From assembly GCF_037392515.1 (NCBI RefSeq), contig NC_090288.1, positions 5,077,501-5,141,500 of the forward strand: 64,000 nucleotides of DNA, in the 5' to 3' direction. A program made the position numbers and the translations under genes. Numbering within the stretch: the first letter of the stretch is position 1; every line of letters begins with the position of its first letter. Shown here one piece after another: positions 2,361 to 61,091 of the stretch. The stretch is from Haliotis asinina (lineage: Eukaryota > Mollusca > Gastropoda > Lepetellida > Haliotidae). The notes under the pieces were generated by a model that had not been told where the DNA came from, did no database searches, and worked only from the letters and a program-made list of their open reading frames with translations.

Positions 2361-2648
2361 CTAATTAGCATCTGTGGTTTCAGCATCTTTAGGACTGTTT
2401 GCCTCCTTCAGAGAGCTGAATGTGTGTCGTACGACTGTGAATCCTTGACCTGAGCGGGGGTGAGTGGGCATGGCTGAACGGAAGTCCCTGCACTCCGCTG
2501 TCACCTCTTGGGTTGTGGAAGGAGTTGTCTCCCCCTTGACCACTGGGTTGAGTGTTCTGTTAAGAAGGTACACCCCTGCTGCCAGGCCACCCAGGTTGAT
2601 GCTTAGAATCATGCGCCGTTGCCAGTAGTGACTAAGAGACTGGATTAC
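2361..2648 (-). CDS. THUMPD3: THUMPD3 exon 9, terminal coding exon (residues 594-688)
   Basis: After acceptor ttttccag the exon continues in phase 0 with VIQSLSHYWQRRMILSINLG and GLAAGVYLLNRT. This matches the vertebrate C-terminal core WRKVDTVWVNVGGLRAAVYVLIRT. The last 65 or so residues are a Thr/Ser-rich, poorly conserved tail ending at TAG (2363-2361). A candidate poly(A) signal lies about 250 nt downstream. Confidence 0.88.
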   Translation of the reverse strand, partial: VIQSLSHYWQRRMILSINLGGLAAGVYLLNRTLNPVVKGETTPSTTQEVTAECRDFRSAMPTHPRSGQGFTVVRHTFSSLKEANSPKDAETTDAN

Positions 2649-5600
2649 CTGGAAAACATGGTCTCATTAGAATGCAGAGATTAGTACTTATAGCATAGTA
2701 TTATATATTGAGCAAGTCACACTATATTTTCTTTCAAAATCGAAAAGTTTAATCAAGAATTGTCTGTTCATATACATATCCTATCTATGAATGAAAAACC
2801 ATGTGAACTTATCTTGGTCTCCAGTCTCCATGTTGTACTCCTTCCTGGACATCTCGCAGTCCACCTGACTGTAGATGATTTGACCAATGTTCTGTTGCCA
2901 GAATTGCTGCTTTGAATTGCTCATTGATGTGCTGGGTCTGTGCTACGAATGACCACTGCCCTGCCACCTGATGATAGCGCAGATATAGGGAGGCATCTAC
3001 GAATAAGTAATGCGTCATACTAATGACTGCAAAGAGACTCCTCTGCAAACATTCTGTTGTTTCAGCCACAATTGCAGGCAATGGTGGAGTGATGGTGGAA
3101 GTTGAACCAATACATTGGTATCTTCAGCATGTAGGTATGGTCATAGAAAATGTTGAATTGGGTAGAGTTGTAGTTGACCACTAAAAGTGAGTGAATGAGC
3201 TGATGTGAGAAGGCCCTGTAGCTCCTGCTATTGGCAAAGAGAACTCCCTTGAGATAATGCTTGGGGAACCCATCATTATATCTTCAACCATCTGTCCTGG
3301 CGCACAAACAATTTGCACTGCTCTGTGTTGAATATTGCTCCTATAAACTGCAGTCTCTCAACTGGTGTTAGTTACAACTTCTTTTTGTTCACTAACCATT
3401 ATGATTATTATGAAGATAATGTCTAGAACATAACCCCAAAATGTAATTTTCTGAATAAAATTGATATTTTATACTTATCCTGACTCATGCTTAATTGCTT
3501 ATCTCCTCTTCCTGGTGAAGGTAGTGGAACACCTGAAATCCCTTGAAGTTCTCTTCTAAAAGAAGTGGATGTAAAATTCACACTCATCCATGTATTACCT
3601 CCCTTGCCCTCCACATGGTCAGCTGACCGTCATGATACTTCACTCTCTCCTTTAATTGCCCGACACAAGAATACAAGAATTCAGCGTGTCTGTGAGGGGC
3701 AGCTGTGAGGGCTTTCGCCACGAGTCAGGATAAGTATAAAATATCAATTTTATTCAGAAAATTACATATTTTTACTTATCCTGACTCATGCTTAATTGCT
3801 TACAGAATCCGACGGAAACAGAGAGGGTTCAGATTCTGTTATCTGTTCCAAATTACGTCCAATAATTTCCCACCAAACGGGAACTTGTAACAGCGATAAT
3901 TCGGTCCTGTTCTTCTCCTAGTCATTGTAGATTTTGGGGGGAATCACATCCAGTCGAACTTGTCTTCCATAGAAGACTATGTTGACTGGCACGTGATGAC
4001 ATCAAAAGTAACTAGTGTCCTGCTAGTTTCTGATGCAACTAAATGTCAAGATATAGCAATCAAGACTAGTTGCGACCCCTCTTCGTGTACAAGTATCTTC
4101 ATTATGAGTACAGGGTCAAAATCACTCATGTTAGTCTGTTTAAGACGTGTGCATTGACTTTCCACCAAAATACTCCGCAGAGCGTCTGGCTTCCACAAGT
4201 CACGTGATAAATTGGGTGAGTTAAGTCAGCATCGTCGGGAAACTGTCAGTTGCTGAGCAACGACAAGTGGCCCAAACTGATGAATGCCAGAGACGTCCTC
4301 TGTGGCTATGTCTCGTAGATAATGGTTGGTAAACACCCTGTTTGACTTCCAAAAGCAGCCCTCCATTATAGTTCATAGAGAGCAATTCCCATGTAGCGCT
4401 AGTGTAGAGACCAAGGCTCTGACTTCGAGTGGGTTGGAGGCTCATGGTGGATCCAATCCTGCTGCTTTATATGCTCTAAGTATAACAGTTCTAATTCACA
4501 CTGAGATAAAGTTGCAGGATACTTCCGTGAGTGTCTCAGTAGATATAGGGATAAACAGGCGCTGAACCATTGTCTTCCAGACTTGGTACATGCAATGTAT
4601 ATTTTCAATGCTCTGACTGGACATAATGATAAATCTTGTGTATCGTGAGGTCCTATGATTGAAGACAAGGCCAGTATACGAAACTGTCTGTCCGGTTAGC
4701 CTGGTAGTTGAAATCCCATCTTAGACTCAAATGAGCTATTTCTTGGTGACTTCTTTCAAACTTTGTTCGACTAAAGTCTTGAGCATGAATTTCTGACATT
4801 CTTGCAGCTGTAGCCTTCCGAATGTCATCTGTCTTGAAAGATCGTTGCGGCGTGTCCTGATGATCTTGTTGTTGAAACTTGGATGCTGACTTGAATGCCA
4901 TAGATAACTTGTCAGAAAAGGTAGAGCTTGCGTGCGTGCATGCACCTCCTCTTCATCGTCAGATGTGAGTGCAGGTCTAGATGAATGCTCTTGCTGAGTG
5001 CAATCGTCTTTCCTCTTCCAATCGTCGCTAAATAAGTTCATCATCTGTCTTGTGAACTGTTGTATGAAAGCGCCTGCATGGAATACATGTGGTGCATGCA
5101 TTGACGACTGTGTTCAAGAGTTGTCTACGATGCCCGAGATTGCAGTCAACATGCGACTGATGTCTTCACTCCGTATCATCAGCGGAGACTCGTAAACAAA
5201 TTGACGTTCTTCCAAGGGCACTATCTCCTATCTGAATGATTTCTTTATCAACAAGGGATGATTCTGCGATGATCTTACAGATGAAGACTTCGAATTCGAT
5301 GACTTCGTTTTCTTGGCCTGTGACGGCCCTGCCTCAACAGATGGTTTCTTCTGAGTTTTGGGAGGGGACTCGTCGACCCTGGACACAACCTCGGAGATAC
5401 GGCTGGCATCTCGCTGGAATGAATCTCAGCATCAATAATTAAACAGTTACCCGATTAATTCACCAGATTAGGCATGGATAATGTGAGCCGACGTTGCTTA
5501 TCTCTAGCACGTCTGTGAACAGACCATAAATATAATAAGAATTCTGCCTCAGACATATTTATGAAAACTTAAAAATGAGTATATGCAGAACATAAAGATT

Positions 5601-8600
5601 TACACGCCGTCCAGAGAACATGCAGGTCAACCGCCAACAGCCTTAACCTGCACTGAAAACACGATTTTATCAACTGAGACTAAGTCTCAGTTGATGAAAT
5701 GCGTGTTAGAAAAAGGCACAATAATCACAAGTTTATGTAATGATAATAAACACATACAAGTCAAAAACTGCATACAACACAAATTTAGTTAGAAAAACCA
5801 AAAGAATGAAAAACTTATCACCGTATACGGGACCCCAGGTGCCTCCAGCCGCACGCATCAGGCAACCATGTGGAGGGCAAGAGAGGTAATACATGGGTGA
5901 GTGAATTTTACGTCCGCTTCTTTTAGAAAGGAACTTCAAGGGATTTCAGGTGTTCCACTTCCTTCGCCAGGAAGAAGAGATAAGCAATTATGTACATGCC
6001 TCACGCTGGTTGAGAATCTTGGCAGACACGTCAGTCCATGTACATGCCCCATGCTGGTTGAGAATCTTGGCAAGACACGTCAGTCCATGTACAAAACCCA
6101 TGCTGGTTGAGAATCTTGGCAGACACGTCAGTCCATGAACATGCCTCATGCTGGTTGAAAATCTTGGCAAGACACGTCAGTCCATGTACATGCCTCATGC
6201 TGGTTGAGAATCTTGGCAAGACACGTCAGTCCATGTACATGCCCCATGCTGGTTGAGAATCTTGGCAAGACACGTCAGTCCATGTACATGCCTCATGCTG
6301 GTTGAGAATCTTGGCAAGACACGTTAGTCCATGTACATGCCCCACGCTGGTTGAGAATCTTGGCAAGACACGTCAGTCCATGTACATAACCCATGCTGGT
6401 TGAGAATCTTGGCAAGACACGTCAGTCCATGTACATAACCCATGCTGGTTGAGAATCTTGGCAGACATGTCAGTCCATGTACATGCCTCACGCTGGTTGA
6501 GAATCTTGGCAGACACGTCAGTCCATGAACATGCCTCATGCTGGTTGAGAATCTTGGCAAGACACGTCAGTCCATGTACATGCCTCACGCTGGTTGAGAA
6601 TCTTGGCAGACACGTCAGTCCATGTACATGCCTCACGCTGGTTGAGAATCTTGGCAAGACACGTCAGTCCATGTACATGCCTCACGCTGGTTGAGAATCT
6701 TGGCAAGACACGTCAGTCCATGTACATGCCTCACGCTGGTTGAGAATCTTGGCAGACACGTCAGTCCATGTACATGCCTCACGCTGGTTTAGAATCTTGG
6801 CAGACACGTCAGTCCATGAACATGCCTCATGCTGGTTGAGAATCTTGGCAAGACACGTCAGTCCATGTACATGCCTCACGCTGGTTGAGAATCTTGGCAG
6901 ACACGTCAGTCCATGTACATGCCTCACGCTGGTTGAGAATCTTGGCAGACACGTCAGTCCATGTACATGCCTCACGCTGGTTGAGAATCTTGGCAAGACA
7001 CGTCAGTCCATGTACATGCCTCACGCTGGTTGAGAATCTTGGAAAGACACGTCAGTCCATGTACATGCCTCACGCTGGTTGAGAATCTTGGCAAGACACG
7101 TCAGTCCATGTACATGCCTCACGCTGGTTGAGAATCTTGGCAAGACATGTCAGACCATGTACATGCCTCACGCTGGTTGAGAATCTTGGCAGACACGTCA
7201 GTCCATGTACATGCCTCACGCTGGTTGAGAATCTTGGCAAGACACGTCATTCCATGTACATGCCTCACGCTGGTTAAGAATCTTGGCAAGACACGTCAGT
7301 CCATGTACATGCCTCACGCTGGTTGAGAATCTTGGCAGACACGTCAGTCCATGTACATGCCTCACGCTGGTTGAGAATCTTGGCAAGACACGTCAGTCCA
7401 TGTACATGCCTCATGCTCGTTGAGAATCTTGGCAAGACACGTCAGTCCATGTACATAACCCATGCTGGTTGAGAATCTTGGCAAGACACGTCAGTCCATG
7501 TACATGCCCCATGCTGGTTGAGAATCTTGGCAGACACGTCAGTCCATGTACATGCCCCATGCTGGTTGAGAATCTTGGCAAGACACATCAGTCCATGTAC
7601 ATGCCTCACGCTGGTTGAGAATCTTGGAAAGACACGTCAGTCCATGTACATGCCTCACGCTGGTTGAGAATCTTGGCAGACACATCAGACCATGTACATG
7701 CCTCACGCTGGTTGAGAATCTTGGCAGACACGTCAGCCCATGTACATGCCTCACGCTAGTTGAGAATCTTGGCAAGACACGTCAGTCCATGTACATGCCT
7801 CACGCTGGTTGAGAATCTTGGCAAGACACATCAGTCCATGTACATGCCTCACGCTGGTTGAGAATCTTGGCAAGACACGTCAGTCCATGTACATAACCCA
7901 TGCTGGTTGAGAATCTTGGCAAGACACATCAGTCCATGTACATGCCTCACGCTGGTTGAGAATCTTGGCAGACACGTCAGTCCATGTACATGCCTCACGC
8001 TGGTTGAGAATCTTGGCAAGACATGTCAGTCCATGTACATGCCTCACGCTCGTTGAGAATCTTGGCAAGACACGTCAGTCCATGTACATAACCCATGCTG
8101 GTTGAGAATCTTGGCAGACACGTCAGTCCATGTACATGCCTCACGCTGGTTGAGAATCTTAGCAAGACACGTCAGTCCATGTACATGCCTCACGCTGGTT
8201 GAGATTCTTGGCAAGACACGTCAGTCCATGTACATAACCCACGCTGGTTGAGAATCTTGGCAGACATGTCAGTCCATGTACATGCCTCACGCTGGTTGAG
8301 AATCTTCATGCAGTGAACCCAACACAAACGCGCTAAAGATTCTTGATGGCCATGAGTACCCAAATCCATATTCCTAGGCTGTCAGGATCTGAGGTGCTCA
8401 AAACTGTAGAAGATTGTTGGAGGTTTGTCACATAAGCATTCGCATGACATGAGTCCTAATGATGTGAATTTGAGGAATGGTGATGGCTCGAATCTGAACG
8501 AATGGCAAACATTTGTCGATCCTCCATAGATGAAAATCCCTTCAAATACGAAATATATTACTTTTAGGCTTCTGGTAGTCTGTCGTGCAGACCCTGAAGC

Positions 8601-11600
8601 AAATATATCCAAGAAACTGAAGAAAGCCCATGCAAGTTTAGAAAATGTGGCAAGACTAGATTCCCTTAGATTCAGAAAATGAAGAAAGTCTCGGCTCTGT
8701 TTCATTATGTTATTATTTCTTAACCATGAACTTTTATCAGTAAAATATGTTCATTTTAGAGACTAGTTCTTAGTCTAGAACATCTACATCTTCACTCCCC
8801 AATAAAAGGCAAAGATTTTCTTGTAAATAGGAGTTTGAAGAAGCATCCAGAAAATCACGCTGTTGCATTCAACTTTCTTCCATTCAGTGACAACGTCCTC
8901 AGTCAATGGCTTACAGCAGGAACAATGATTATCCTAGGAACAAAATCCCTGACAATCCACACATACTGTATAGGGATCAGCAACAAAAAAGATAGTCCTA
9001 CACTTATCACAAACTCTCCTCTTCTTAGAGGAAGATGTTTCTTTCTTTCTCATCTTCTTGTCTGGAAAATTAGTTAACGAATTAGTGTCTGCACAACAAG
9101 AAGGAGAATAACCACTAAGAGATGGTCATCTGACTAGGCAGTGGAGCGTGATGCATGCCTCACGTGAGAAATGGCGAGATGCGTAGGAAGGAGGACAACA
9201 TAGAGGGTGGGAGCTTGTACTCGAAGCTAAAAAAGTTTACAGATTTTTTCGTTTCCACTCATTTGTCGAATTAAAGAGAGAGAGAGTACAATACGTGAGA
9301 CAGCATAAGTTAAAAAATAAAAAGATAATTATGAGTAAAACATGCAATGTCTTAAAGGTACAGGTCAATTGTTTAAATTTTTATTTCTATATTATACTTG
9401 CAACCACATTTGTATTTGTATGAGTAAGTGAGAGTCAGAAATGGTGTAAATATACCACCATTTAATATTTGATATTATTTAAGTGGTATTATCCAGTGCC
9501 AGGCTTAATCTTCAATACTGATTTGTCAGTTTTCGGGTTATGTCTTAGCATTTTGATTGATATGTAAGGAAAGCCCAAAGTTTACACAATAAATACCCTG
9601 GGGATTTCACGGTGATCAGACAAAATAACTCGGCAGGCCAGAGTTGTCTACCCTGTTTTCTAATGTTTTTAGCATTGACTTCAGTCCCATGTCTGATTTA
9701 AGTGGCATTTAGATGCTGGCATGATGGACAAGAACATCTGCCTGGATGGACAACTTCTCAGTTGCCAAAGATGCAGTGTTTATTGTGTAGATGCTAACAC
9801 TGCTGTCAAGCATGATCAGTTTCCTGATAATAGTGTTAGCATCTACACCGAAACGTTGCATCTATTGCATTAAATAACATGTGTTACCCTGATCATGCAC
9901 TTCTTGTCCTGGGTGAGGAGACATGCTCTACCATTCCCGGGACGACACACCCGGGCCATCTCAGTCAGGGCTTCTGGGTACAGCTTTGTGTTGTTGAATC
10001 TTGAACCCATCCTGAAACAGTCACACTGTATGTAGTCCAATGAAACATTTCCTGATACAGAGACAGAGAGACTGGGAAGGAGAGGAAAAGTGAGAAAGAG
10101 CAATGGATATTCTTGTGAACAATTTAATGCATGTTAGCAACATAACACTTGACAAGATGCTCAATGACATCACAGAACTATCAAAAACCTTGCACTAATC
10201 ATGAAAGGGGATCTCTGAGCCAAATGATTGAATCTGATATTCGAAACTCCTTTCCAACTTTAAACTGAACAAAACCTACATCAGCAATCAAACAATGTGA
10301 AGTGACAGGCCTGAATCATACTTGACAGGACTGAAAAGTTTGAGCATCTTAAAAACATCATACACTGATTTCACGTTGTTTGTAGGTCTTGATTGATATC
10401 TCAAAAGAAATGACATGCTATATCTGAGGCTGGTCTTGGTGAAACTATTATTATCATACCACTCTGGAAGAATCAAAGAAGACAACGTCAGAAGCTTACG
10501 ACCCACGCTCTCCGTTATATACTCATCTAGAAAAGTAGGGGAACTGTACTTTCAATGTACGATTGTCGAAATTGGGGGATATGTGGGATTGAATCAATGT
10601 TGATCCAATAATAATGGATGTTTTGAGAATGCATCCCCACATGGATTTCAAAGCAAAGCTCATCCCCCTTGTTAGGTGAGTGGAGTATGACATGAAAATT
10701 TCAGGTATACAATTTTCAGTCAGTAATTTGTGATTTGACCCTGAAAACCCTGACCATGCACAGATGCAAGAAAATTATTGGAAAAATGGTCTACAATATC
10801 AACCAGCTTATCTACTTATCAACCTGCCTGAAAAATGTGAAGATTAATAATGACACCCCTGCACATGTAGGAAGCTCCCACGTTCTGCATGTCCTTCCCA
10901 TGCGTTGTGTTTGTGTGTGGTGATAACGAGAAATGATGCTGCATTGCACAAGATGAATGTCATTGTAACGTTCCTCAATGGGTTTTCTTTCTACCAGACT
11001 TCAAAGTTCAGGTTCCTCTACTTGTTTTGAAGAGTATACATCGAACTGAGCTACACTCATAATCACCAAACCATTCAATTTCATCAGCACTGTAAGCAGT
11101 AATTACATGCACTGATCTAAAAACACCAGTGGTGTTTCTTAGTGGTCTTTCTCACAAAAGTAAACAATATGCAGTAATCTATACCACCAATCCTGACATT
11201 TTCAACTACACACAACAATCTGACTGAAAGCACTGTGAAGCGAAAAAGGAGCAATCCAGTAAGATAAAGTAATTATTTTCTAGCTTTTATTAAAGCTATG
11301 GCAATCTAGAAAATTGCCATTTGATGCCATCTCACATTTAAAAAAACTATGCTGATATTTTTCTTTCTTCGATTCATGAACATCCATCTTGGCAGTTTAC
11401 CAAGGCTGATAAAAGCGTCTTGAAAAGAACAAAAATTTTCAACTCACCTTTTGCCGAAGGGCTGCAAAAGAGAAAACAAGATAGAAGCTCAAATCAATGT
11501 GATTACTGTGCGACTTGAAGAGCGCCCCAAGCCAAAAAAACTCCTCACTAAAATCAATGGAAAGAAAAATTACCCTTTCGATTTAAATTCTAAAATGAAC

Positions 11601-14600
11601 TCCGGAAGGGTAATTCCTTAATCAATAACAATTTGGTTTGGGTTGTATTCAATCATCCCGTGGAAATTTGAGATTTCTTATCTGGTAACTGCTCAGCCAG
11701 GACAGCAGCCTGTCTAATTATCTCGGCAATGATTAAGCAGGTCGGTAATTTCGTGTGTATGATGCCACTGAATCACTTGTCATCATTCATTTGGTATTGG
11801 TTATATTAACGAGGGTCTCAGTGTGATGATAAGGCCTCTACAGGACAAAACCTGCTGCCAATATGGCCATGATGAAACTCATCTCTAGTGCAGGGGGTTA
11901 ATAATGTCTTGTGGCATGTATTGATTTTCAAAATCAAATTAGGCCTAAATCCATGTTTTGTTATGCATCTCTTTCACAGGTAAGAAAGTGTTGAATAACT
12001 ATGCCATGACCAGTGGATATAGTGTGTTGGGATTTATAAAGTCAGAGTACAGTCACACACAGTGAGCCGGGTGGAAGCTGTGAGTAGTCTCCCTTGGCAG
12101 TTGCTCATCCATACAACAAAATCCCAACTGACAGTGTGCAAAAATCTGAAAAACACTTGAACTAACTACCCTCCCCTAGTGCTAGCTATTTTTTTATGAT
12201 CCTCCCCATATCCTACTTGTTTCACTAAATGCAAATGTACTTCATGTTTTATAACAAAATGTGCATATTCTCATGACCCTAATAAATAACAGTCTTAGAA
12301 AAAACAAAGGACTGTACTAAAACCTTTATAGTAGAACAGACAACTACAGGTATTCCAGCAATTAATCCAATATTTGCTAGTACTTAGTCAAAAGACGTGG
12401 ACTCTGTAAGTTTAGTAGCCCTACGAACTTTTTACTTGACACTGGAATTGGGCTAGTACTTAAAGTCACAGTCTGTTTCTATCTCTATTCATGGCTATAG
12501 CTATCTCACTGAAGAATGAACTTCCTACCAAGTCAGTTATGAAAACATCCACGCTGCCCTCTTTGAAGGGGAGGTAAGTCACATCCCAGTATCCAGCATC
12601 AACTGCAATTTGCTGTCTAAAAACCACAAACAGAAAATAAAAAACACATTTTCACATACGAATATGAATTTTGTATTTTTAACATCACTTGAATATTAAC
12701 CACATTAAAAGTCTTGAAGTTTGCATAAACCTGAAGTTGAAAATCTTGTTCCATCCCTGAGTGCAATGGTGGGTGACAATAGACATCAGTTTCACTCACT
12801 GTACCCATGTGGAGAATTGAACCTGGGTCTTTGGCATCATGAGCAAAACGCTTTAACCACCGGACTACCCAGTGGCACATAACACTACTAACAGACAAGA
12901 TACCAACAAGTGATAAAGTGATAAGAGGGACTAATAATGATAACTAATGATATTAATAGTTTATATAGCATCTAGTGTCCATCTGACCAGCTGCTCACTG
13001 GATGCTGCCTGCTAGGTGCTAGAGGGTTACAGTCACATGACTTTATCCCACCAGGTACCCATTTTCTGCAGTGTGAACAGAGGCATTATTGAACCAACTC
13101 TCCTGCTGAAGGTGAGACCTCATGTATCAAATGTCCTTCATTGTGGGGCAGACCAGAGTTTTGTCTGTGACAGAAGCTGCATGTCACAATCAACAAGTTT
13201 TCTTTCTGTTTCCATAGACATGAATTAAAACATTTCTCTTTTCAAGCTGAGGAATTGTTAACAATGCAATTAATATTTCTCATGCTACACTTTCTTGAAA
13301 ACTTTGCTTGCACATCAGCAGGTATGAAATTGTCCGGATAAGCGAATTTTCGGATATCTGAACCAGGGGCCATATGTTAAAAAAAAAACCAAACACAGTA
13401 GGCATCAGACATAATCTTTATTGATTACATGTTAACAAATATCAGAGCATACATAAAATGTCTCATACCTTGTTCATGCAGTTATGCTCGCTTGAAGAAA
13501 TCAGTCATAGCTTTTTGCACTACCGGCACAAGATCATCGACAGTAACAGCCACAGTTGCAACTTGTGCATAGGATCGTAGTGCATCGCGAAGTTCCGACA
13601 AGGCCATGTCTTTTTGTGGGTCCTCATATGATTGGATAATATTCACATGACAGTTAGCAACTGTTTTTTAGCTCACAGCTGTCCAGGCTTGCTTGATCAT
13701 CCAGATTAATTAATTATAGTGACCAACAAATTGACACGCCTCAAATTAACTCTGTGTAACCTTGCTACTTAGAGGTAGTTAATCTTCTCACGCTTCAAAG
13801 ACTGCCGACTTCTTTCATGTTACTGCACGCGAGGCCCTCGGTAAACGCGTGTGTAAACATACAGGTGGTCAGCCATCCAGATATACAAGACAAAAAATGC
13901 ACATAATTTAGTGTTTTGTATGTGAAAATGACCGAACGGTTACAGAAACCAGATTTCCAGATAGGTGAATAATTTTACAACATTGTGGATTCGTTTTAAG
14001 GAATCTTTTCGTTCGGAAGGCGAGTTTTCCAGACATTTGAGGTTCGGATAAACAAGCATGACTGCATTTTTATTACTGCAGACCCAAGATGCTTGTAATC
14101 ACAAGAAACATCTCTTGTTCTACCTCAGTGATGATCCTCACATGCATCACATGCTGTGTATTTTTTACCGAGTCGCCTTCCTCGGTTCAAGCTGTGCAAA
14201 CCTCACAGGCTATGAGCACAGTGCAGCACAGGGAAACATAGTGAATCTTTTGAACTCTGATTTTACATTTTATTTATAATTGTGTTATTTTTCAACTTTA
14301 TAAGTTGAATTTGCATCTTTGAGGATTTGTTACTGTAAATCCATACCCAAAGGAATCAGAAACTGCAAAGTTGTGTTTTGTGTGCATGTGACCTCTAACT
14401 TGAACTTGAGGATTAATGAGGACAAGTACCCCAGTACACTGTATATTTCCTGCTAAAACACAATGGACAATGTGCAAGTGCTTTCTTACTGATTGTCAGA
14501 GCTCAGTTCCTTGTTGAGAGCTGCCACATTCTGCACAGTGCGGTCGACAGCCAATGGGAATCTCTCCCCACTCAGATGGAACGCTTCAGGCCATCCTCGA

Positions 14601-17600
14601 GCAGCCTGTGATATAAACAGGACAACGCCACAATCAGCACAATGTGTCATTTAAAATCTATTTGAGATCATGGTCTGAGTACAGAGGTTGATAATTTCAC
14701 AAAAAAATGGAACATATGTTTTGATAGTTCAGTGGGAGTCAACATTTGAAAAAACAAAATCTGAACAGGTGTTGAACCCCACTACTCTACAGACACACCA
14801 AATTTTTGGAAACGAAATTGTTAAGTAATCACCATAACAAGTTTCAGTTTTTAGTCATGTTGTACCACAAAGACGAAAATTTAAATAGCACAAAACAAAG
14901 AATATTTAGGCTAGGTCCACTAATTACATCACAAGCATCAAATTCAGTTATATTGCAAAGCCAGACCAATTGTATGTCTTGTTTTATGGATTTGTGTCCT
15001 CAGAAAACCTAAATGAAGGATGTAAAACAAAAATAAAACTAAAGTCACTAGTTCTTCTAAATACTAAGAGTATTTTACTTTTGGCAACTGGTGACATGTA
15101 AATGAGGCAAAAAAAAAACAATCAAAAACATTTTCTTGCAAGAAAAAAAAAAAAACCCAGAGGAATTCAGTTTCTGCGCAGACCATCAGATCTGTACAAC
15201 AAGAAACAAAATTAATCTGGCCTTATATGGCTGTGAAAGAGTTCCTTTGGCTGCGATGACAACCATAATGAAAATAGGATTTCAACCTGTTCAACAAAGT
15301 GAGTGACATGGCTGTAGTTTTCAGTTTCATTGGTTCAATAAATTCTAAAGCGAGGGACAACAGATGACACACAATGAACATGGGAACCAGATACAATAAT
15401 GACTGGGCAACATCATGAACATTATTTCAAACATGGCTGCTGTAGCAGCCATATTGAAAACAATTTGTACAAACTGGACTGTGTCCATGATTGTGACCAT
15501 CTCAAATATCAATATTTCAGGCCTAAGGCCAAAATGTTGGGATGATATACTGAAATTCCAATGTCATATTCAATGCATGGCATCTGTGATGTCATAGACA
15601 ATGCTATTGAGAGAATCAACATTTCAATCACAATGGATAAGAAATTTGTATCTCTATGGACACAACTATAAAGTGAATGTATTTCTACTTACCTGTATGG
15701 GGATACTGCCGCTGCCACACATTGGGTCACACACCACATCTCCAGGCTGGATCTTACACAGTCTGTAATACAGGATACAGTTAGGTCATTGGTTGACACA
15801 TTTTAAATATTCAGGCCCAAGTGATAGTTTCCATTACTGAAATGGAACTGACACCTAAAGACTCTTTACGGGTATCTCATGAACATGAAATATATACATT
15901 TGAAACTGAAAACTGTACTTTGTGATTAAGTGTACATCTTCATGTCTTTTTGACGGAGTGGAGTGGAGTGTTTTGCTGTTTAACACAGCTCTCAGCAACA
16001 TTCCAGTCATATGAAGGCAGTCTGTCTTACTACCTGATCCCATTAGTCACCTCTTACAAGAACGGGTTACAGAGGACCAATTTGGAGAGGTTTGGATAGG
16101 TTCAGAGAAGTTTGGATAGGTTCGGAGAGGTTCGGAGAGGTTTCGAGAGTCTTTTCACCGGACAAAATTGTTGGGACATGTTTATGCCCTGTTTGGAAGA
16201 AAACATGACCTAAAAAATTGTGTTGCTGACACAAGTTTGAGGAATGAAACCATGGAATAAGGGAATACTTATCTGGTACATTTGGTGGCAAGTTTTACTG
16301 ACAGATGGCTTTCTACATTTGACATGAGGTTAGTTAATATGATGGTCTGGGCTGAACATTAGCAGGATTATGAAACATAGTCAATCAGACAATTTTTCCT
16401 TTCACTAATGAGTTTGGTTTTATACTGCTTTTAGCAATATTCCAGCAATATTACAATGGGGAACACCAGAAATGGGCTTCACATATTATACCTAAGTGGG
16501 GATTTACATCTGGGTCTTCCAAGTGATGAGCAAACACTTTAACCATTAAACTACCGCTTCCGCTGTATGATCGATTCCTGTGATGTGTGTATGTGTAAAG
16601 ACAAGTGTTACAAACACCTCTACCTGAGCATGTTACAGGCGATGGTGGGTCTGAGAGTGGTGGCGCCAAATACTGTGATGTTCCTGTGATGGAGACTCCC
16701 CTTGGTGAGGCCTATACACACTGACATGTCCGTCCACTCAATATTCAGAATCACCTCCACATCAAAGTTCTTCATGTCAACGTTCCATCCGAAGTAGTTC
16801 TGCACAGCGCCACCGAAGTTGGCAGCAGCGCACATGGAGTCAAAGGTGTGACCCTCACCAGCCCGGTTACATGTCACACGGAATGATGGCATGAGTGGAT
16901 TGTGGGGCACCAACTTTTCTCTGGGTTTCTTGGGGCTTGAGGTTTCGGGAGGTGTTTTCTGAGGACTAGATGGTGGGGAAGATGGCTTTTGGGCACTTGA
17001 TTGAGGGGAAGATGGTTTTTGACCATCTACTTGTTCCTTCGTGCTGGGTGACAGGTTCTGATCAGAAGAGGATGAGGTAGCCTCACAAGACTGTACAGTT
17101 TTATCATCCACATCCTGTGTTTTCTTGTCACCTGATTCCACAGAAGGATCACAGGCTTTCATGTCATCACACACATCATTACTTTCCTTCTCCATACTAT
17201 TTTCGCTAGACTTAGTATTCTTGTTTCCCAGGTTCATTTCGGAAACTCCTGAACTCAGATCTGCTTCTTGTACCGTTTTCACAACTATTTGTGACTGAGT
17301 ACTCAACTCATTGATCCCAGACTTTTCAGTGTCTGAATCGGCATCATCAAACTGGCCATCTATTACTCCTTGAGTATGGCCGCCTTGACCGTCAACATAC
17401 TGACCTTCATTGCTGATAAACTGAAGGTCGGGAGGTTTTCCAGCATCACCAGACTCCCCATTCTGCCTTTCGTCCTTCTTTCTCCAGTCTTTTCCTTTCT
17501 TTCCAAACTTGTCCTTCTTTCCAAACTTCCCACCCTTCTTCTTGGGCTGTTTCTTTGGCAGGTTTTCTCTGGAGGTGAGGTAGGGTTCCCCCATGTCTAC

Positions 17601-20600
17601 AGTATCGCTGACAGGGGTGGACAGGATGGGATGCTGGAATGTATACACCTGCTTCCACACCTTCAGTCCCTGGTCCCAGTCCACGTCCCGTACCAACTCG
17701 CGCAACTTCCTCATACACTCCAGCTGCAACATAACAACATGTAACATGGACTACTTCCAGCTGAATTGATATCAGTTAGGACCATCCTGCCCCTATCAGC
17801 AATACAATAATTCAATATGTTTAATTCAATGTTATCGTACAAGTCATGTGGAACATGACATGTCATCGTATCTCAGTTGTAGCTCATGACGTTAATCAAT
17901 GGACCATCTGGTCCAGACTTTATTGGGTGAGTGAGTCAGTTTTATGGTTATTTTAGCAATATTCCTGCAATATCACGGCGGTGGACATCAGAAAAGAGCT
18001 TCACTTATTGTACTCATGTCGGGAACTGAACATGCGTCCTCTGCATGGATAGTCATTAAACTATTAAACCAGTAGGTTACCTCACCACATCTCCAAATTC
18101 TATTGTTTACAGAAAGCTGTCACACAGCTGAAATACTGCTGCATGCAGCATTAAAGAAAAAACCCAAACAAACAAGCAAGCAAGCAAGCAAAAAGACCAA
18201 CAAGAGTAATTTGCCTCATGATCCACCTATGCTGTAGATGACAATGAGACACACACATTCCTATTTATTATTCGTTTAAAAATACCAGATAATAAAACCT
18301 TTTGATATAACGATCAGAAGTAATATGTGAAATAATCTAATATTGGTATTTTTAGCTACAGCTTTCAAAACATGTTGAATGTACTTGTAACCTAGGGGCT
18401 AAGAGTAACACTTAGGTATATTAACATATCATTTTCACATATAGTAGTCGCAGCTGAGGGTTTCAAAGGTAATCCATTATGACACCAAAAAATGTCAAAC
18501 TAAAGCAAATTTGATTTTCAACACGTCATATTATGGCATTTATTAAACATATTGTCAGCATTGGTAATCTAATCATACTTGAAGGAATTAACGATGGAAT
18601 CAGCTGACAGCTCATTCACCCTTTTTGTCAAAATCAATATAAACATTACTGAAGAAAATTAGACTATAATGACGAAAACAGAATCTCAGATTGCAAACAC
18701 AAGTTCATACATACTAGGAACAGATTTTATCACCAGACAAAGTAACAGCATCATCACTTCAGGAAATTCACCAGAGATTTTCTAGGTTAGATGATAAGAT
18801 TACAAGTGTTTAAGGTGAGGAAGATCAAAATCATAGGAACAATTGATTATTTTGTTCAAGCAAATTCATAATGACACGGAACAACTGTAGTTTCCTTTGT
18901 AATTTGGCACAGCTGTATTTGCTGCAGAATTGATGTTACAGTTTGAAATTCAAGAAATAGATTTTAAAGAATAAAAAACAAATTTCATCTGCAATAATGT
19001 TTTACGTTGCCTCAAATTTATAGACCATTCCAGTTATCAATGGCCCACAGAGTGAAATTTATGGAACATGGAGCGAAAATTATGGTCTAGACTTGCCAAA
19101 AATGGACCATAAAAGTGCAGCTATGGGGCCAAAGGCTCTTGAGGAATAGTTCCTTCCTAATCACTGCTGACAAAGCAGCATGCATTCACATGTGTGGCTG
19201 TTTTTACCTGTTGTTTGCCAAATATTACAGTTTCATAGTGCTAGCTCTATGGGATACAAGCTACAATTTAACATGGACATCCCACTTGGACAAAGAGCAC
19301 TGATGCCAAGCAGACCTGACCTTGTCTAATGTCAGACAGAATAATATGAAGTTAACCATGTGAATCCTGATGCAGCCAGGGGCTGATCCACCAATTTTCT
19401 GTTCAAGGTTTAATAAATACCATGCAGGAATGTCATGCCACACCCACCTTGTCCTCAGGAAAGTCAACATTCTTCCAGGTAGACATAAGCACTCTGATGT
19501 TGTCCACACACCCTAGTTCCAAACACTGCGAACAAACCAGATGTCAGTTTTCTATGATTCTAAAGTCCGCTTGAGTTCAAATAAGAACTATAAATAACTA
19601 AATAAATTGAACTAGGGATAAGTACACAAAACATAGATAAGACACATGGTCCTGAAACCTCTGTATCCAACCGGATACGAAATTTGACGTTTTATGATCC
19701 ACTATGGAAAATGTTGTTTAAGAAGCCATCATGCCATATTGTTACACTTTCATGCTTCACACTAAGTGGTGACAATAGTCTGGTGGAAAGCTGAGCATCT
19801 CATCAGATATATTCACACATGTTCTATCATCGTGTTCAATGCAATAATGTAAACCTTCAGCCTCTTCCTCTCTACTGGTATTGTTTTTAGTGACATACAA
19901 GCTGCCTCACCATGCCATCACATCAATTCAAACCAACTTTATATTCATGCTTCTCCGCTAGCAGGAGACTACTAAGTTCTGCCTGGGACAAGTGATAAAT
20001 GCTGAATCAATTCTCTATGTTTTAATTTTCTTGAAATGTTTCAACTGAAAATATAAAATGACACAAATTAAAGAGTGAGTGAGTGAGAGTGTTTTTACGC
20101 TGCTTTTACCAATATACCAGCAATATCATGGTGGGGAACTCCAGATATGGGCTTCAGACATTGCACCCATGTGCAGAGTATTCAGTGTGATGAGTGAACG
20201 GCTTAACCAGCATAAAGTGAACGAGACTCAGAACCAGACTTAATGACCAGTATGGGTAAGGCCTTAAAACTAACATCAGGGAAAGACATTAATCATGTTC
20301 AAGATAGCTTCTAATTTCCCTTCAAATTCATTATGGCAGGACTCAGAAACAAGAGATTTTACTATAGCATCAATCAACTTGAATTTCCATCTTTTCAAGC
20401 TTTTCCCTTCAGGAGACATGTTCTCTTGAATTGACTACTGTCTTTGAAAAGATAAATCAGCATCTTTTTCACTGTCAGGCTGATATCCATTCCCTGTGAT
20501 CCAAACTTTCATTGTCTATCATAGAAACAATATATTGTGATAAGTATAGTATTTGGAGATCTCCAATATTGATCAGTGCCAAGAACTTGTGCTGTCAAAT

Positions 20601-22277
20601 ACTATGAACATGTTGATCTCATAATGATAGACATCATGGTGTCACGGCTTATCTGGGCATGCTCAGAGACTGATGATTGGCACCATGTCTGTGGCGAACG
20701 TCAACAAAAATTCCCAACTTGCAATTAAAACTGTCCATATGCATCAATTTATAACCACTGTTGTAGCTCTGTAAAGACAACTTGTATCTCAATGATAGCA
20801 TAACCTAAAAAAAGCAGAAGAGGTACTGTTGCATTTGATACAATGTTTTAATAAATCTGAATCATGAGAAATTAGGACATTAACAAATTTCCAACTCGGC
20901 TTACTATTGATTTTCTCCAAGGGAACTCAGATTAGATTCCAAGATTTGTTTTTTAAATTAACCAGTTTAATACCATACTAGTGTACAAAAGAATAGGGTG
21001 AGTGAGTAACTAATCATTTAAGCTGCATCAGCAATTTTTAAGCTTGGAAGATTAGAGTAGGTTTTACGCCACTGTTAGCAATATTCCATCAAAATCACAG
21101 TGACGACACCAGACAGGAGCTTCACACATTGTACCCATGTGGAAAATCAAACCTGGACCTTCAGTATGACGAGCGACTGATTAAATCTCTGGGCTACCCA
21201 ACCATCGTGAAACAAGCTTAGAGACATTAAGAAATGATTCAGATTTATGTAATAGCCACCTGTCAATGTGCAACTCATGTCCTCACATCAAAACTACATC
21301 AAATAAGAACTGCAGCTGAAAACAACACATTCTTGTCCAATGCACAGATTAGCTACATGCTGTCACCTGCATCTACTAATGGATTTGCCCAACAGAAAAG
21401 AAATTAATATCATTTATTTATGTTCTACAGTTGTAATTTTAAGCATACAGTTCTCCTGAAAGAACTGATGGGCTGTGCCCATTACATGCCATGGGGGTGC
21501 CTCCACACAGGTAACTTATCTCTAATTTGTTAATTTGTGATGTAGTTAAATGAAATGAAGTTCTTATGACAGTTAACCCAAGGAGCCTACTTTATTCATT
21601 CTGCCAGACCAATTTACAGCAATTAATTTGATTGACATCAATTAGCATATTGAAGTACAACTTGCCATTGATAGTTTGTATGTGTTCCTGATAACCATTT
21701 CCTGATACACTGCAAAATTTTGATAATTCACTGACTTGGGTCACTTACTAGTTACTGGTCAATGATGTAAACAACCGTTAAGTATCACACATCGGCGACC
21801 TCGGCTGAAAATGTGTTTACCACGAGAATAGGAAACCCGCGAGAATAGGAGACGGCCCTATAGAAAACAAAATTCAGTGCTCATGCCTTTGATGAACAAT
21901 ATAGCCAAATAGATTTGGACCTTCCAGTTCCATACGTAAATGGTCATATGCTGATGTGTGGCAGACAACGTCGGCTGATAACAATGTGACCTGTAAGACC
22001 TTCAAAACTTCAGAGTGTCACTCGTCGTCTGCTATATGACATTTTTCGTAAAGTTTTGCATGTGACCAAGGCAAACATAAAATCTCACTTTCTTGACATC
22101 ATTCACTGGTACTATGGCCATGACTTTCCCTCTTGCAGCTCTTGCTGTTATTCCGAACTTTTCCTCCACTTCCTCTTTAGCTATTTGTTCGAAACCAGTT
22201 GCAACTGTCGCTTCTATTTCGCACATGTCAATGTTTTCATTTGCTCCCTCAATCACGTTTCCTATGGGGGCTGCCAT
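2361..22277 (-). CDS. THUMPD3: THUMPD3 orthologue, tRNA guanine-N2 methyltransferase (whole gene, 9 coding exons)
   Basis: Joining the nine exons listed separately gives 2067 nt, or 688 codons plus stop, with no frame conflict. The known family member, working with the adaptor TRMT112, makes N2-methylguanosine in the acceptor region of tRNAs (positions 6/7). Visible parts in order: an N-terminal segment (residues about 20-115); a Lys/Gly-rich basic stretch (about 146-172) and an acidic/Ser/Pro-rich linker (about 176-369); the THUMP core (about 370-440), opening with FRVTCNRAGEGH; and a Rossmann methyltransferase with motif I DPMCGSG at 468-474 and motif IV DLPFG at 546-550. Human THUMPD3 is about 507 residues; the excess is mainly the linker. 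The acidic residue usual after motif II is Glu493 here rather than Asp, a mild change. Similarity was judged by eye from family knowledge; no alignment was run. The gene is divergent from a plus-strand gene at 23343. Confidence 0.93.
2809..3330 (-). pseudogene. Retroelement reverse transcriptase/RNase H fragment
   Basis: The minus strand carries, with frame breaks, TGPSHQLIHSLLV, then LFVDASLY and VAGQWSFVAQTQHINEQFKA followed by AILATEHW. The run of (V)DAS, a Gly-containing turn, HIN(x)E(F)KA and an LATEHW helix is what RNase H domains of DIRS-like and related retroelements look like, with DAS holding the first catalytic Asp. It lies inside the last THUMPD3 intron in sense orientation. Several stops and indels make it non-functional. 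It could be a separate insertion from the recombinase-bearing fragment at 4230-5440. Confidence 0.6.
3437..3803. repeat. Retroelement terminal repeat cluster (inverted and direct)
   Basis: About 45 bp at 3440-3486 ('taattttctgaataaaattg...gactc') recurs in reverse complement at 3720-3765. The motif 'cttatcctgactcatgctta' (about 30 bp) recurs directly at 3475 and 3776. Next to it, 3490-3620 is the reverse complement of 5866-5990. Inverted termini plus short complementary internal repeats are a hallmark of DIRS-type elements. Confidence 0.6.
4230..4668 (-). pseudogene. Decayed tyrosine recombinase (DIRS-like element)
   Basis: Across two frames the minus strand shows LSLCPVRALKIYIACTKSGR, then LRAYKAAGLDPPRAS, VRALASTLALHG and finally VFTNHYLRDIATEDVSG. 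CPVRAL(x)Y, the R-A-L-(A/S)-(T/S) helix and a C-terminal F(x)nHYLRD are features of tyrosine recombinases in DIRS-like retroelements. Frameshifts and stops disrupt it. It lies downstream (on the minus strand) of a gag-like remnant, with no reverse transcriptase between them. Confidence 0.55.
4736..5440 (-). pseudogene. Gag-like remnant of the DIRS-like element
   Basis: The minus strand at 5440-5228 reads a Lys/Ser-rich stretch (SRVDESPPKTQKKPSVEAG, then SQAKKTKSSNSKSSS). It continues in another frame, at 5101-4736, with a charged helical stretch. This composition fits the N-terminal ORF of DIRS-like elements, but there is no diagnostic domain. The call rests mainly on its position just before the recombinase remnant. 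Confidence 0.4.
5658..5707. repeat. 50-nt near-perfect hairpin
   Basis: A 12-bp perfect stem (tcaactgagact / agtctcagttga) with a one-base loop at about 5683, extended outward by aacacg/cgtgtt pairing with a bulge. It lies between the gag-like remnant and the outer inverted repeat. Confidence 0.7.
5866..5990. repeat. Outer inverted repeat of the DIRS-like element
   Basis: This 125-bp stretch, including 'ggcaagagaggtaatacatg' and 'cttcaagggatttcaggtgt', matches the reverse complement of 3490-3620 with scattered mismatches. Where the left copy continues into 'aagcatgagtcagg', this one passes directly into the 48/49-bp minisatellite. Confidence 0.65.
5991..8306. repeat. 48/49-bp minisatellite, about 47 copies
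   Basis: Unit: tgtacatgcctcacgctggt + tgagaatcttggcaagacac + gtcagtcca (49 bp). Many copies lack one A (ggcag instead of ggcaag), giving 48 bp. Common variants are cctcac/cctcat/ccccat/aaccca and gtaca/gaaca. The mix of 48 and 49 breaks any long reading frame, so the short ORFs on both strands are by-products. It lies within the last THUMPD3 intron, fused to a retroelement terminus on the left; the right edge ends abruptly in unique sequence. Confidence 0.95.
8562..8770 (+). mobile_element. Dispersed repeat family C, copy 1
   Basis: Contains 'cagaccctgaagcaaatata', 'agcccatgca...tagaaaatgtggcaa', 'gaagaaagtctc' and 'gtatgttcattt...agagacta'. Copies 2 (46495-46690, same strand), 3 (49508-49710, inverted) and 4 (50040-50180, inverted) share these blocks in order, with a few bases' change each. 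No protein domain or clear terminal repeat was seen; probably a non-autonomous element. Confidence 0.7.
8771..9521. other. Intronic stretch without recognised features
   Basis: Part of the last THUMPD3 intron. It holds a short GA-rich run (about 9276-9290) and otherwise AT-rich unique sequence. Confidence 0.5.
9785..9848. repeat. 17-bp perfect inverted repeat (64-nt hairpin)
   Basis: gtgtagatgctaacact (9785-9801) and its exact reverse complement (9832-9848) are separated by 30 bases. It lies 40 nt downstream of the exon 8 donor on the minus strand and is preserved in the duplicate at 39496-39559. Confidence 0.85.
9888..10011 (-). CDS. THUMPD3: THUMPD3 exon 8 (residues 552-593)
   Basis: A 124-nt exon with acceptor ctgtttcag and donor gtaaca. 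The first base completes Arg552 from the microexon, then come MGSRFNNTKLYPEALTEMAR and VCRPGNGRACLLTQDKKC..., matching RMGSKKRNWNLYPACLREMSRV and GRAVLLTQDTKC of vertebrates. It ends in phase 0. The exon and about 0.9 kb of flanking intron are copied near-identically at 39233-40249. Confidence 0.92.
10012..11447. other. THUMPD3 intron 7 (between microexon and exon 8)
   Basis: No repeats beyond the duplication edge at 10538. No other coding similarity was seen. Confidence 0.6.
11448..11461 (-). CDS. THUMPD3: THUMPD3 exon 7, a 14-nt microexon encoding PFGK(R)
   Basis: Fourteen bases, CCCTTCGGCAAAAG, sit between a strong acceptor (tttctcttttgcag) and a consensus donor (gtgagt). In the frame set by exon 6 (phase 0) they encode Pro-Phe-Gly-Lys plus two bases of Arg. 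The split codon is completed by the first G of exon 8, giving DLPFGKR followed by MGS, exactly the family's motif IV. Without this exon the frame would shift and the catalytic motif would be lost. Found by looking for the missing motif between exons 6 and 8. Confidence 0.92.
11462..12528. other. THUMPD3 intron 6
   Basis: The polypyrimidine tract of the microexon acceptor lies at 11462-11476. No recognised repeat. Confidence 0.6.
12529..12616 (-). CDS. THUMPD3: THUMPD3 exon 6 (residues 518-547)
   Basis: An 88-nt exon. The acceptor is ttttag, not the acag four bases further in, because only ttttag keeps the frame. It encodes AVDAGYWDVTYLPFKEGSVD and then VFITDL, aligning with AVQWDICNLPLRTGSVDIIVTDL. 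It stops exactly after TTG (Leu547), before donor gtagga, so it breaks the catalytic DLPFG motif between L and P. Confidence 0.9.
12762..12885 (-). mobile_element. SINE-A copy
   Basis: Reads 'actcactgtacccatgtgg' and 'gaacctgggtctttggcatc', then 'cgctttaaccaccggactac'; on the minus strand this is the tRNA-like A box and a good B box (GGTTCAATTCTCC). The tail body is diverged. Confidence 0.75.
13330..14055 (-). mobile_element. Remnant of a DNA transposon, possibly pogo/Tigger type
   Basis: The ends carry related 'ccggataagcgaattttcgg' and 'gttcggataaac'-type sequences in opposite orientation. Inside, the minus strand reads a C-terminal peptide (MALSELRDALRSYAQVATVA, then VDDLVPVVQKAMTDFFKRA and stop), followed by an AATAAA-containing tail and an A-rich run near the end. 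Ending in a short acidic/FF(K) motif is common for Tigger-like transposases. The catalytic core is missing, so the family call is tentative. Confidence 0.4.
14490..14605 (-). CDS. THUMPD3: THUMPD3 exon 5 (residues 480-517 plus two bases of 518)
   Basis: A 116-nt exon between acceptor atcacag and donor gtaaga. It encodes AARGWPEAFHLSGERFPLAV followed by DRTVQNVAAL. This lines up with the motif II region of the family (FHIAGDNNPLAVNRAANN). The residue that usually contacts the SAM ribose as Asp is Glu493 here. The exon ends with CA, completed to Gln518 by the first base of exon 6. Confidence 0.88.
14606..15692. other. THUMPD3 intron 4
   Basis: A-rich runs at about 15109-15155; otherwise no recognised element. 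'tagcagccatattga' at about 15443 recurs as 'ggcagccatattga' at about 36079, a match too short to name a family. Confidence 0.45.
15693..15762 (-). CDS. THUMPD3: THUMPD3 exon 4 (SAM-binding motif I, residues 456-479)
   Basis: A 70-nt exon after acceptor ttacag; its first A completes Arg456 and it ends in phase 0 at donor gtaagt. It encodes LCKIQPGDVVCDPMCGSGSI and PIQ. DPMCGSG is methyltransferase motif I, the glycine-rich SAM-binding loop, and matches the DPMCGTGAIPIEG of vertebrate THUMPD3 almost exactly. Confidence 0.92.
15955..16075 (+). mobile_element. Repeat family B, 5' and 3' fragments joined
   Basis: Retains 'cagcaacattccagtcatat' and 'ctgatcccattagtcacctc + ttacaag' but lacks the middle (gatcaacagc...gtgtcaacca). 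The family is described at 52050-52275. Confidence 0.55.
16076..16150. repeat. Short tandem repeat of 'gaggttcggata' type
   Basis: Four to six imperfect 10- and 20-bp units (gaggtttggataggttcaga and shorter forms). It sits directly at the end of the family B fragment. Confidence 0.7.
16415..16565 (-). mobile_element. SINE-A copy, nearly full length
   Basis: Shows 'tactgcttttagcaatattc', 'gaacaccagaaatgggcttc', a degraded B box ('gggatttacatctgggtc') and 'aaacactttaaccattaaac'. It lies just inside the intron next to the exon 3 donor. Confidence 0.75.
16624..17723 (-). CDS. THUMPD3: THUMPD3 exon 3 (residues 90-455 plus two bases of 456)
   Basis: This 1100-nt exon carries over half the protein. 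It starts after acceptor ttgcag with LECMRKLREL and includes DQGLKVWK, matching the NPLKVWKI region of vertebrates. A Lys/Gly-rich tract follows at residues about 146-172, then an acidic and Ser/Pro/Gln-rich linker with SPQSSAQ/SPPSSPQ near-repeats just before the THUMP core. The core begins FRVTCNRAGEGH and runs through NFGGAVQNYFGW, NFDVEVILNI and LTKGSLHHRNIT, all strongly THUMPD3-like. It ends CTC AG before donor gtagag (phase 2), the split Arg456 being completed by exon 4. The linker is low-complexity and probably disordered. Confidence 0.93.
17724..19447. other. THUMPD3 intron 2
   Basis: Contains a SINE-A copy at 17928-18090 and a (CAAG)n microsatellite at about 18171-18192. The rest is AT-rich and unremarkable. 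Confidence 0.55.
17928..18090 (-). mobile_element. SINE-A copy, diverged
   Basis: Retains 'ttttagcaatattcctgcaa', 'tatcacggcggtgg', 'gaactgaacatgcgtcctct' and 'attaaaccagtaggttacct'. The B box is mutated. Confidence 0.7.
19448..19525 (-). CDS. THUMPD3: THUMPD3 exon 2 (residues 64-89)
   Basis: A 78-nt exon between acceptor ...cgcag and donor gtgggt, phase 0 at both ends. It encodes CLELGCVDNIRVLMSTW and a short tail, aligning with the vertebrate stretch around CLRSVDNLFVVV. It is too short and lacks a start codon, so it shows up only through splice-site and homology reading. Confidence 0.85.
20072..20215 (-). mobile_element. SINE-A copy
   Basis: (GAGT)n, 'tacgctgcttttaccaatat', 'gaactccagatatgggcttc' and 'tgcacccatgtg...gagtgaacggcttaacc'. 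The B box has been deleted (gtgcagagtattcagtg). Confidence 0.7.
21050..21205 (-). mobile_element. SINE-A copy
   Basis: 'taggttttacgccactgtta', 'gcaatattcc', 'cacacattgtacccatgtgg' and 'aaaatcaaacctggaccttc'; the minus strand retains a recognisable B box. Confidence 0.75.
22089..22277 (-). CDS. THUMPD3: THUMPD3 exon 1 (residues 1-63)
   Basis: The start chosen is the ATG at 22277-22275, in good context (A at -3, G at +4; protein begins MAAPIGN). The motif ATVATGFEQIAKEEVEEKF matches the N-terminal GATVPTGFEQ region of vertebrate THUMPD3. The exon ends with AAG AAA followed by donor gtgaga, phase 0. The frame stays open upstream to another ATG at 22406, which would add 43 residues; the added part has no recognisable family match, so the shorter start is preferred. 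Confidence 0.88.
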
Positions 22278-53033: not shown

Positions 53034-53779
53034 CATCTGTTAAAACAGGCCCCCTCACCCCGACTCCCTTGCACCGTTTTTTTGTGCCAAGCACCTGCTA
53101 AAAGAAACGTGTCGTAAGGATCCCTACTTGACTAAATCTATGTAAAACATAGTACCATCAGACGTTCATGTGTCCTTAATCACATATTTAGACAGTTTAA
53201 CAAGTGCTGATGCCTTGGTGTTGCTTGTGATGTGAAGTAGTTTGTCTTATGATGGCTCCACACTCATGTCTCTGTGAGTCATGTATTTCTCACATTGATG
53301 TCTGCCTGGAAACCTCACAGTTAGCTATCATTTGTCACACATCATTGTGACCAACAGCAGACAATTGTCTAGAGTTGTATCATATGCTTATCATATGATT
53401 TTGTACGTTCCAGATTATGGGAACCATGCAGTCATTTCTTGTGCTAGATGCATTTGTTTGTCATAAGGGTATCTATAGGGGCAGGCAAGATAGTTCAACA
53501 TCCTAATTGCTACAAGCAGACATTTATGACTTCCGAAATATGATTTGTCATATTGTCAGACTTTTAGATAAATGTTGGTTTTGCTTAATAGTTTTTGTGA
53601 CCCATGATTATTATAAAGCAGGAAGTTGTCAGGGCTTGTTGAAGAGCTTCAACCGCAGAAAATAGTGGGAGATGCTGTCAGGATGCTTACTACTCTCGCT
53701 GTATCGTATGCCTGCTCTTTTGATGACTACTCTCACTATGTGTTATATTTACTCTTGGGATGCTTATTATCTTGATGTT
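53034..53779. other. Non-coding flank of the 34-bp array
   Basis: No element recognised. The last 60 bp contain degraded array-like phrases before regular units begin. Confidence 0.45.
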
Positions 53780-59700: not shown

Positions 59701-59830
59701 GGTCACTGTCCACATGCCTCTCACTTGATGTCATGGTCACTGTCCACATGCCTCTAACTTGGTGTTATTGCTACTATCTACATGCCTCTCACTTGATGTC
59801 ATGGCCACTCTCAACATGCCTCTCACTATG
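53780..59830. repeat. 34-bp minisatellite, about 178 copies (6 kb)
   Basis: Unit: cctctcacttgatgttatgg + ccactgtcgacttg. Linked variants occur at three places: ttatgg/tcatgg, gccactg/gtcactg and gtcgacttg/gtccacatg (the first carries a SalI-type GTCGAC). Phase is kept at 34 bp nearly throughout. In the right third, rare variants recur 510 bp apart (15 units): ttggtctaat at 58161 and 58671, ttgaggttat at 58331 and 58841, with a third ttgagg at 59385 (16 units on). In the left third, gatgttgtgg recurs 476 bp apart (14 units). Most frames hit TGA each third unit, so it is not coding. Confidence 0.97.
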
Positions 59831-61091
59831 TTATACTCACTGTCTGCATGCCTTGTACGTTGTGACAAGTGTACTCTCACTGTATGTTATGCCTACAATT
59901 GTTGTATATTATGCCTGATAGTGTTAAACCATATTTAACATGTGACAGAAAAGACTGAAGTACTGTTTGCAGATACACCTCCACTATTTGATAACATTCA
60001 CAAGTGTTCGGTGAAAGGTGATGCAGTGTTATATTGTGTCAAGAATGGCATGATAAGATGGTTACATGTAGTGCATTATCAACTCAGAAAAGTGCCGCTA
60101 TGTTAGGATTATCACATGCGTTATCAGTAAGGTCCTTGCCCAGTATACAGTTTCCACGGACGCAGCAGACTGGGATCCCCTTATGTTAGCATCGTGAGCT
60201 GATTGAAACTAAGAGGAGTCACAGCTTGTGAAGAAAGAAGAACCTTTTTGCAGCTCTCACATCTCATATCCATCAGATCACATAATGGACAGGATAATAC
60301 TTTCCTCCACTAAGCAGGAGATAACTGCATTCATTATGGACTCAAGAGACTGGTCACTGTGTTCCAGGAAAGGTCAAAGAATGTGACTCTCAACATTCGC
60401 TGTTTGATGTCTTCCGGGATTGTCATCTCATGGACAGATGCAAATATCAAAATATATTTCTATTCTATTGACAATGTTGAATAGATGTAACATTGTGAAA
60501 CCATAGACGATAATGTTTTTTTCTTTTCATGTTTTGAAGTTGATGGTGTATGAACCACAGTCTAAGAGCTGTGTCTTTGAAGAAATTGATATTTGATGAG
60601 GTCGATAAAGTCTGTCTGATTTCCTTTTTTGTCTTATTGTTTTTCAAGAAGGATATTATTTTCTCATGAGTTATGAAAATTCTATTATCCTTTAAGTTCC
60701 ATTTTCATTATATTTGCATAATGATTTCTTTGAGTTTGGTACTTTTGGTTGATAATGGGAAATAAATTATTCTGCCAATATCTCTGTTTGGTTTTTCAGA
60801 TGGTGAAAAGGTATACATGTGTGCTTACTGAATAAAAGAGCAAACACAATATGGTTGTGGTGACACTACATGAAAGTTTCCTCATAAAGTGAAGTAGAAC
60901 TGAACTCATTCTCTTTTCCAAAGCATATACAAGAAATAGCAAGCCATTGTTAACTTATACGATCCTTGGTTTTGAATGATTATGCAGGCATGCAGATAAC
61001 AAGGCGAGAACAAAATATGGGTCAGGTTGCAGAAAGCAGATTGTTTGTGTTCAATTTATCATGATAAGCATGTCTCATCGTCTGTATGGGT
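59831..61091. other. Non-coding stretch between two tandem arrays
   Basis: Array-like decay to about 59900, then AT-rich unique-looking sequence. No exon recognised. Confidence 0.45.

Follow-up and report, generated by a model that had tools for sequence, protein, structure and literature searches.

The window, that is, the whole stretch of 64,000 nucleotides that was analysed, carries on its minus strand (22277-2361) a gene of nine coding exons. Spliced together, they stay open over 688 codons, and 8 of the 8 introns have GT-AG borders. Exon 1 (22089..22277, 189 nt) starts at the presumed ATG. Exon 2 (19448..19525, 78 nt) is the least certain one, since it is based on a weak match that was found with a human segment as bait. 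Exon 3 (16624..17723, 1100 nt) encodes a low-complexity stretch followed by a weak THUMP match; by eye the former covers roughly residues 145-360, N-terminal to the THUMP match, and is first Lys/Gly-rich and then Ser/Pro-rich. Exon 4 (15693..15762, 70 nt) includes the SAM-binding motif, DPMCGSG. It is followed by exon 5 (14490..14605, 116 nt) and by exon 6 (12529..12616, 88 nt), of which the C-terminal codons (...VFITDL) supply the Asp and Leu of motif IV. Exon 7 (11448..11461) is a microexon of 14 nt that encodes P-F-G-K-(R) and is entered in phase 0 and left in phase 2. Exon 8 (9888..10011, 124 nt) encodes RMGSRF...CMIR, and exon 9 (2361..2648, 288 nt) holds the stop codon.

The intron that precedes exon 9 (intron 8) is 7239 nt long. 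It harbors a minisatellite at 5990-8306, in which a 49-base unit recurs about 48 times (94% matches), and, on the minus strand of positions 2800-5430, broken open frames, one of which includes the stretch DLSLCPVRALKIYI. This stretch may resemble tyrosine-recombinase (DIRS-like) retroelements; a Pfam scan of four of the six such peptides from these frames had no hit at E values up to 0.1.

The encoded protein matches the Pfam family UPF0020 (PF01170) with 111.4 bits (E 5.8e-32, cut-off 22.3) over residues 439-606, a match that spans the exon junctions. When exon 7 is left out, the score drops to 57.9 bits and the match stops at residue 546. The THUMP domain (PF02926) is matched at residues 369-418 with 19.9 bits, slightly under the cut-off of 20.6. 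Among proteins of known structure, the best matches are 3tma (TrmN, 46.7 bits) and 3tlj/3tm4 (Trm14, 38.9 bits), followed by 3ldu, a putative methylase, with 25.8 bits and the G10 enzyme with 24.4 bits. The best NCBIfam model is Trm14_Arch with 79.3 bits, far under its prokaryotic cut-off of 280, and the second is the rRNA methyltransferase EmtA with 76.4 bits (cut-off 625). The prokaryotic Trm14 and TrmN enzymes are encoded by genes without spliceosomal introns, unlike the locus described here. In the alignments, the sequence DLPFGKRMG stands opposite NLPYGLKIG of Trm14 and NPPHGLRLG of TrmN, and the alignment runs through the junction of exon 7; therefore the microexon lies inside the presumed motif IV. 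From the domain order, the nearest relatives and what is known of the human THUMPD3 protein, the gene probably encodes THUMPD3, a predicted tRNA m2G methyltransferase of the Trm14/TrmN type.

A review that uses the name TrmN for 3tma groups the enzymes TrmN, Trm14 and THUMPD3-TRMT112 together (PMC9957541). A signature conserved among them is presumed to bring the substrate into position for catalysis (PMC10415138). Motif IV of related enzymes is described as [ND]-P-P-[YFW] or [ASN]-[LIV]-P-[YF] (PMC3814359). The predicted protein resembles the m2G6 enzymes THUMPD3-TRMT112, Trm14 and TrmN (PMC9957541, PMC10415138, PMC8708615) in its UPF0020 domain and in a motif IV of the form [DN]-x-P-[FYH]-G. 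The weak THUMP match, which stays under its cut-off, may be a further likeness to these enzymes.

The sequence of exon 7 is CCCTTCGGCAAAAG (11461-11448, minus strand), which lies between ...tcttttgcag and gtgagt. An earlier note on this DNA had placed a 14-nt exon at 11448..11461 between introns of about 1.1 and 1.4 kb; an exon bordered by AG and GT and in frame is present exactly there, and the introns measure 1067 and 1436 nt. Being internal, no longer than 15 nt and bordered by AG and GT, it classifies as a microexon on sequence features. The joins 12529/11461 and 11448/10011 are both in frame and give ITDL-PFGK-R-MGSRF. The assignment of the whole DLPFG motif to the microexon needs a correction: PFGK and two bases of the Arg codon are indeed encoded there, whereas Asp and Leu are the last codons of exon 6. 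It was also correctly noted that the exon length cannot be divided by three and that skipping of the exon shifts the frame and loses residues of motif IV. Without exon 7, translation would run into a stop after 16 new residues, with 73 nt left to the last junction.

Both splice sites of exon 7 are strong, as the earlier note had proposed in describing a strong polypyrimidine acceptor and a consensus donor. Site strength was scored as the match of the donor to the consensus and as the number of pyrimidines in the acceptor. The acceptor (11462..11481, tcttgttttctcttttgcag) has 15 pyrimidines among the 16 positions from -20 to -5, a level reached by 3 of the 1237 AG dinucleotides in the gene body, and is the best of the eight acceptors. 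The donor (11442..11450, AAG|gtgagt) agrees with MAG|GTRAGT at 9/9 positions. This is the case for two of the 1281 gene-body GTs, the other one being the exon 4 donor, with which it is tied as best of eight; by U1 pairing energy the exon 7 donor ranks second of the 1281. A branch-point-like TTGAT is found at -33. The neighboring sites are weaker: the exon 6 donor (TTG|GTAGGA) matches at 5/9 positions and the exon 8 acceptor has 8/16 pyrimidines, while the AG located 14 nt further upstream has 10/16. Because the exon 6 donor and the exon 8 acceptor are weak, mis-splicing in this region is conceivable.

We consider it very probable that 11461-11448 is a constitutive, obligatory coding exon of 14 nt in an intact eukaryotic, probably animal, THUMPD3 gene, providing PFGK and part of the Arg of motif IV. 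For an exon that breaks the frame and carries residues of the active site, an obligatory role is the best reading. Since skipping of exon 7 would give a frameshifted protein and the use of neighboring sites a protein without the loop, selection would be expected to hold its splice sites strong. The stop reached after skipping lies 73 nt before the last junction, so that skipping would inactivate the enzyme and probably expose the mRNA to decay. This outcome may be regarded as the penalty for a mistake in splicing; a regulatory role does not have to be assumed. Constitutive inclusion, the order of intron removal and the decay of skipped mRNA are aspects that we infer from the locus.

The comparison with microexons from human brain points in the same direction. 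In that survey, constitutive microexons surpass other exons in the strength of their 5' and 3' sites and in upstream T, a further mark being their density of exonic enhancers, whereas the alternatively spliced microexons are described there without such site strength (PMC4317164). Exon 7 shows the greater strength at both of its sites, and because its donor and acceptor fit this profile, the exon looks constitutive. It resembles the animal constitutive microexons of that survey in being a very short coding exon with an unusually strong donor and a T-rich acceptor, although that set was obtained from human brain RNA-seq and vertebrate conservation, while we deal with one gene known from its sequence (PMC4317164). 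Short flanking introns are another mark of constitutive microexons; the downstream intron of 1436 nt, however, exceeds the median of 955 nt given for introns after constitutive microexons, a yardstick that is human (PMC4317164).

The earlier note had suggested that exon 7 serves as an on/off switch for the enzyme, with skipping that depends on tissue or cell state and that would lead to a frameshift, loss of motif IV and mRNA decay. The length of 14 nt, not divisible by three, would suit such a switch, as would the position of the stop that follows skipping, which at 73 nt before the last junction lies far enough upstream for decay by the usual rule of 50-55 nt. Two copies of TGCATG in the downstream intron, at +337 and +688, could also be cited in its favor. 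Regulated microexons of the RBFOX type, as described in the survey, have weaker sites and an enrichment of TGCATG in the downstream intron (PMC4317164). Strongly conserved flanks in the introns are another mark of such microexons. Exon 7 has very strong sites on both sides, which the alternative microexons reported there lack, and the TGCATG count is within chance. The two copies compare with 0.75 expected, and at least two occur in 17% of simulations; both moreover lie beyond +300. A role of RBFOX appeared suggestive when the expectation was calculated from base composition (0.33 expected) and was dropped when neighboring bases were kept (0.75 expected). A UGC next to the exon 7 acceptor was likewise set aside as evidence, as it belongs to an ordinary TGCAG acceptor. 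In the main text of the open-access papers searched, THUMPD3 did not occur together with 'microexon' or with 'exon 7', and the absence there of a report combining the gene with a microexon also speaks against the switch. The proposal thus found no support, and we regard regulated skipping as unlikely.

A different alternative is offered by the AG at 10027-10026, which is separated from exon 8 by a stretch of 14 nt (10012..10025). If exon 7 is skipped and this AG is used, the reading frame is exactly restored and a protein of the same length results, ITDL-CDCFR-MGSRF, in which CDCFR replaces PFGKR. Such an isoform swap would replace the catalytic loop. Besides the restored frame, the pyrimidine count of the upstream AG (10/16, against 8/16 at the exon 8 acceptor) is in its favor. 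The swap would however require two co-ordinated choices, the same AG shifts the frame when exon 7 is included, and a frame-compatible AG within about 30 nt is, by a rough estimate, common by chance. A second AG sits 14 nt before exon 9 (stretch 2649-2662). Since exon 9 also has such an AG and inclusion of exon 7 gives a frameshift, the spacing of 14 nt may be due to chance, and the swap seems very improbable to us. An elaboration in which the two choices are coupled, so that inclusion of exon 7 would give the active enzyme with PFGKR and skipping with use of the upstream AG a catalytically dead, tRNA-binding decoy with CDCFR, has an equally slight chance of being correct.

That exon 7 is an artefact of the gene model, the true mRNA having another exon or the locus being a pseudogene, is highly unlikely: the weak match on which exon 2 is based is a point in its favor, and against it stand the nine open exons with eight GT-AG introns, the completion by PFGKR of a motif conserved in Trm14 and TrmN, the rarity of the string in shuffled sequence and the failure of any other tested join or cassette exon to provide the motif. 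When the sequence that separates exon 6 from exon 8 was shuffled 1000 times with its dinucleotides preserved, the strict string, AG followed by a 14-mer coding for PFGK and R and then by GT, occurred 0 times as compared to once in the real sequence, and it is found once in the whole window on both strands. A looser string, AG-P[FY]G with no donor required, occurred 14 times in 1000 shuffles, again against one observed. The earlier note had named an extension of exon 6 or 8 that encodes PFGKR as the result that would contradict it; direct joins with donors in the range 12586-12400 and acceptors in the range 10400-9888, ending in the frame of exon 8, gave P[FYWH]G in none of the 38 cases that were open and in frame. 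Candidate cassette exons between exons 6 and 8 (open, 5-200 nt, compatible in phase and flanked by AG and GT) numbered 162, and the one with P[FYWH]G is exon 7 itself; a start with Pro and an aromatic residue was found in one other candidate only, a 5-nt exon that gives PW. Because neither the joins nor the other cassettes provide it, the motif appears not to be makeable without exon 7, given GT-AG introns and the limits tested.

Parallels to exon 7 are also known from plants. Conserved plant microexons of at most 15 nt resemble exon 7 in that a tiny exon carries part of a functional motif and is often missed by annotation (PMC8831610). The earlier statement that annotation commonly misses exons this short thus stands for these plant exons (PMC8831610). 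A 9-nt exon of plant invertase codes for D-P-N/D-G/A, and a microexon of 14 nt is also known, in AT2G30695; the length of the invertase exon is a multiple of three, whereas exon 7, with 14 nt, breaks the frame (PMC8831610). Exon 7 thus looks like a real exon of an ordinary kind in a striking place, microexons with part of a motif already being known from plants (PMC8831610). The locus would be a clear case of active-site residues that depend on a frame-breaking exon of 14 nt. Gene predictors that omit exon 7 would report a truncated THUMPD3 or one without the loop. Should the exon prove to be widespread in animals, it would offer a useful marker to test the survival and splicing of exons of this kind.

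Candidate relatives of the locus in other sequence collections were rejected. A DNA pattern for DLPFGKRMG had 0 matches in viral contigs. Its two matches in prokaryotic contigs lie in frames of 293 and 27 residues in which no other THUMPD3 motif was seen by eye, and these are attributed to chance. One stretch of a viral contig matched a related-locus pattern and encodes no relative.

Scans of the window for tRNA genes and against Rfam gave no match. Its distal part includes a very long satellite-like array at 53771-59853, in which a 34-base unit recurs about 179 times (93% matches) with a strong base skew. Further on, at 61090-61463, a 37-base unit is repeated ten times without a mismatch (100% matches), and the three minus-strand frames are all open there.
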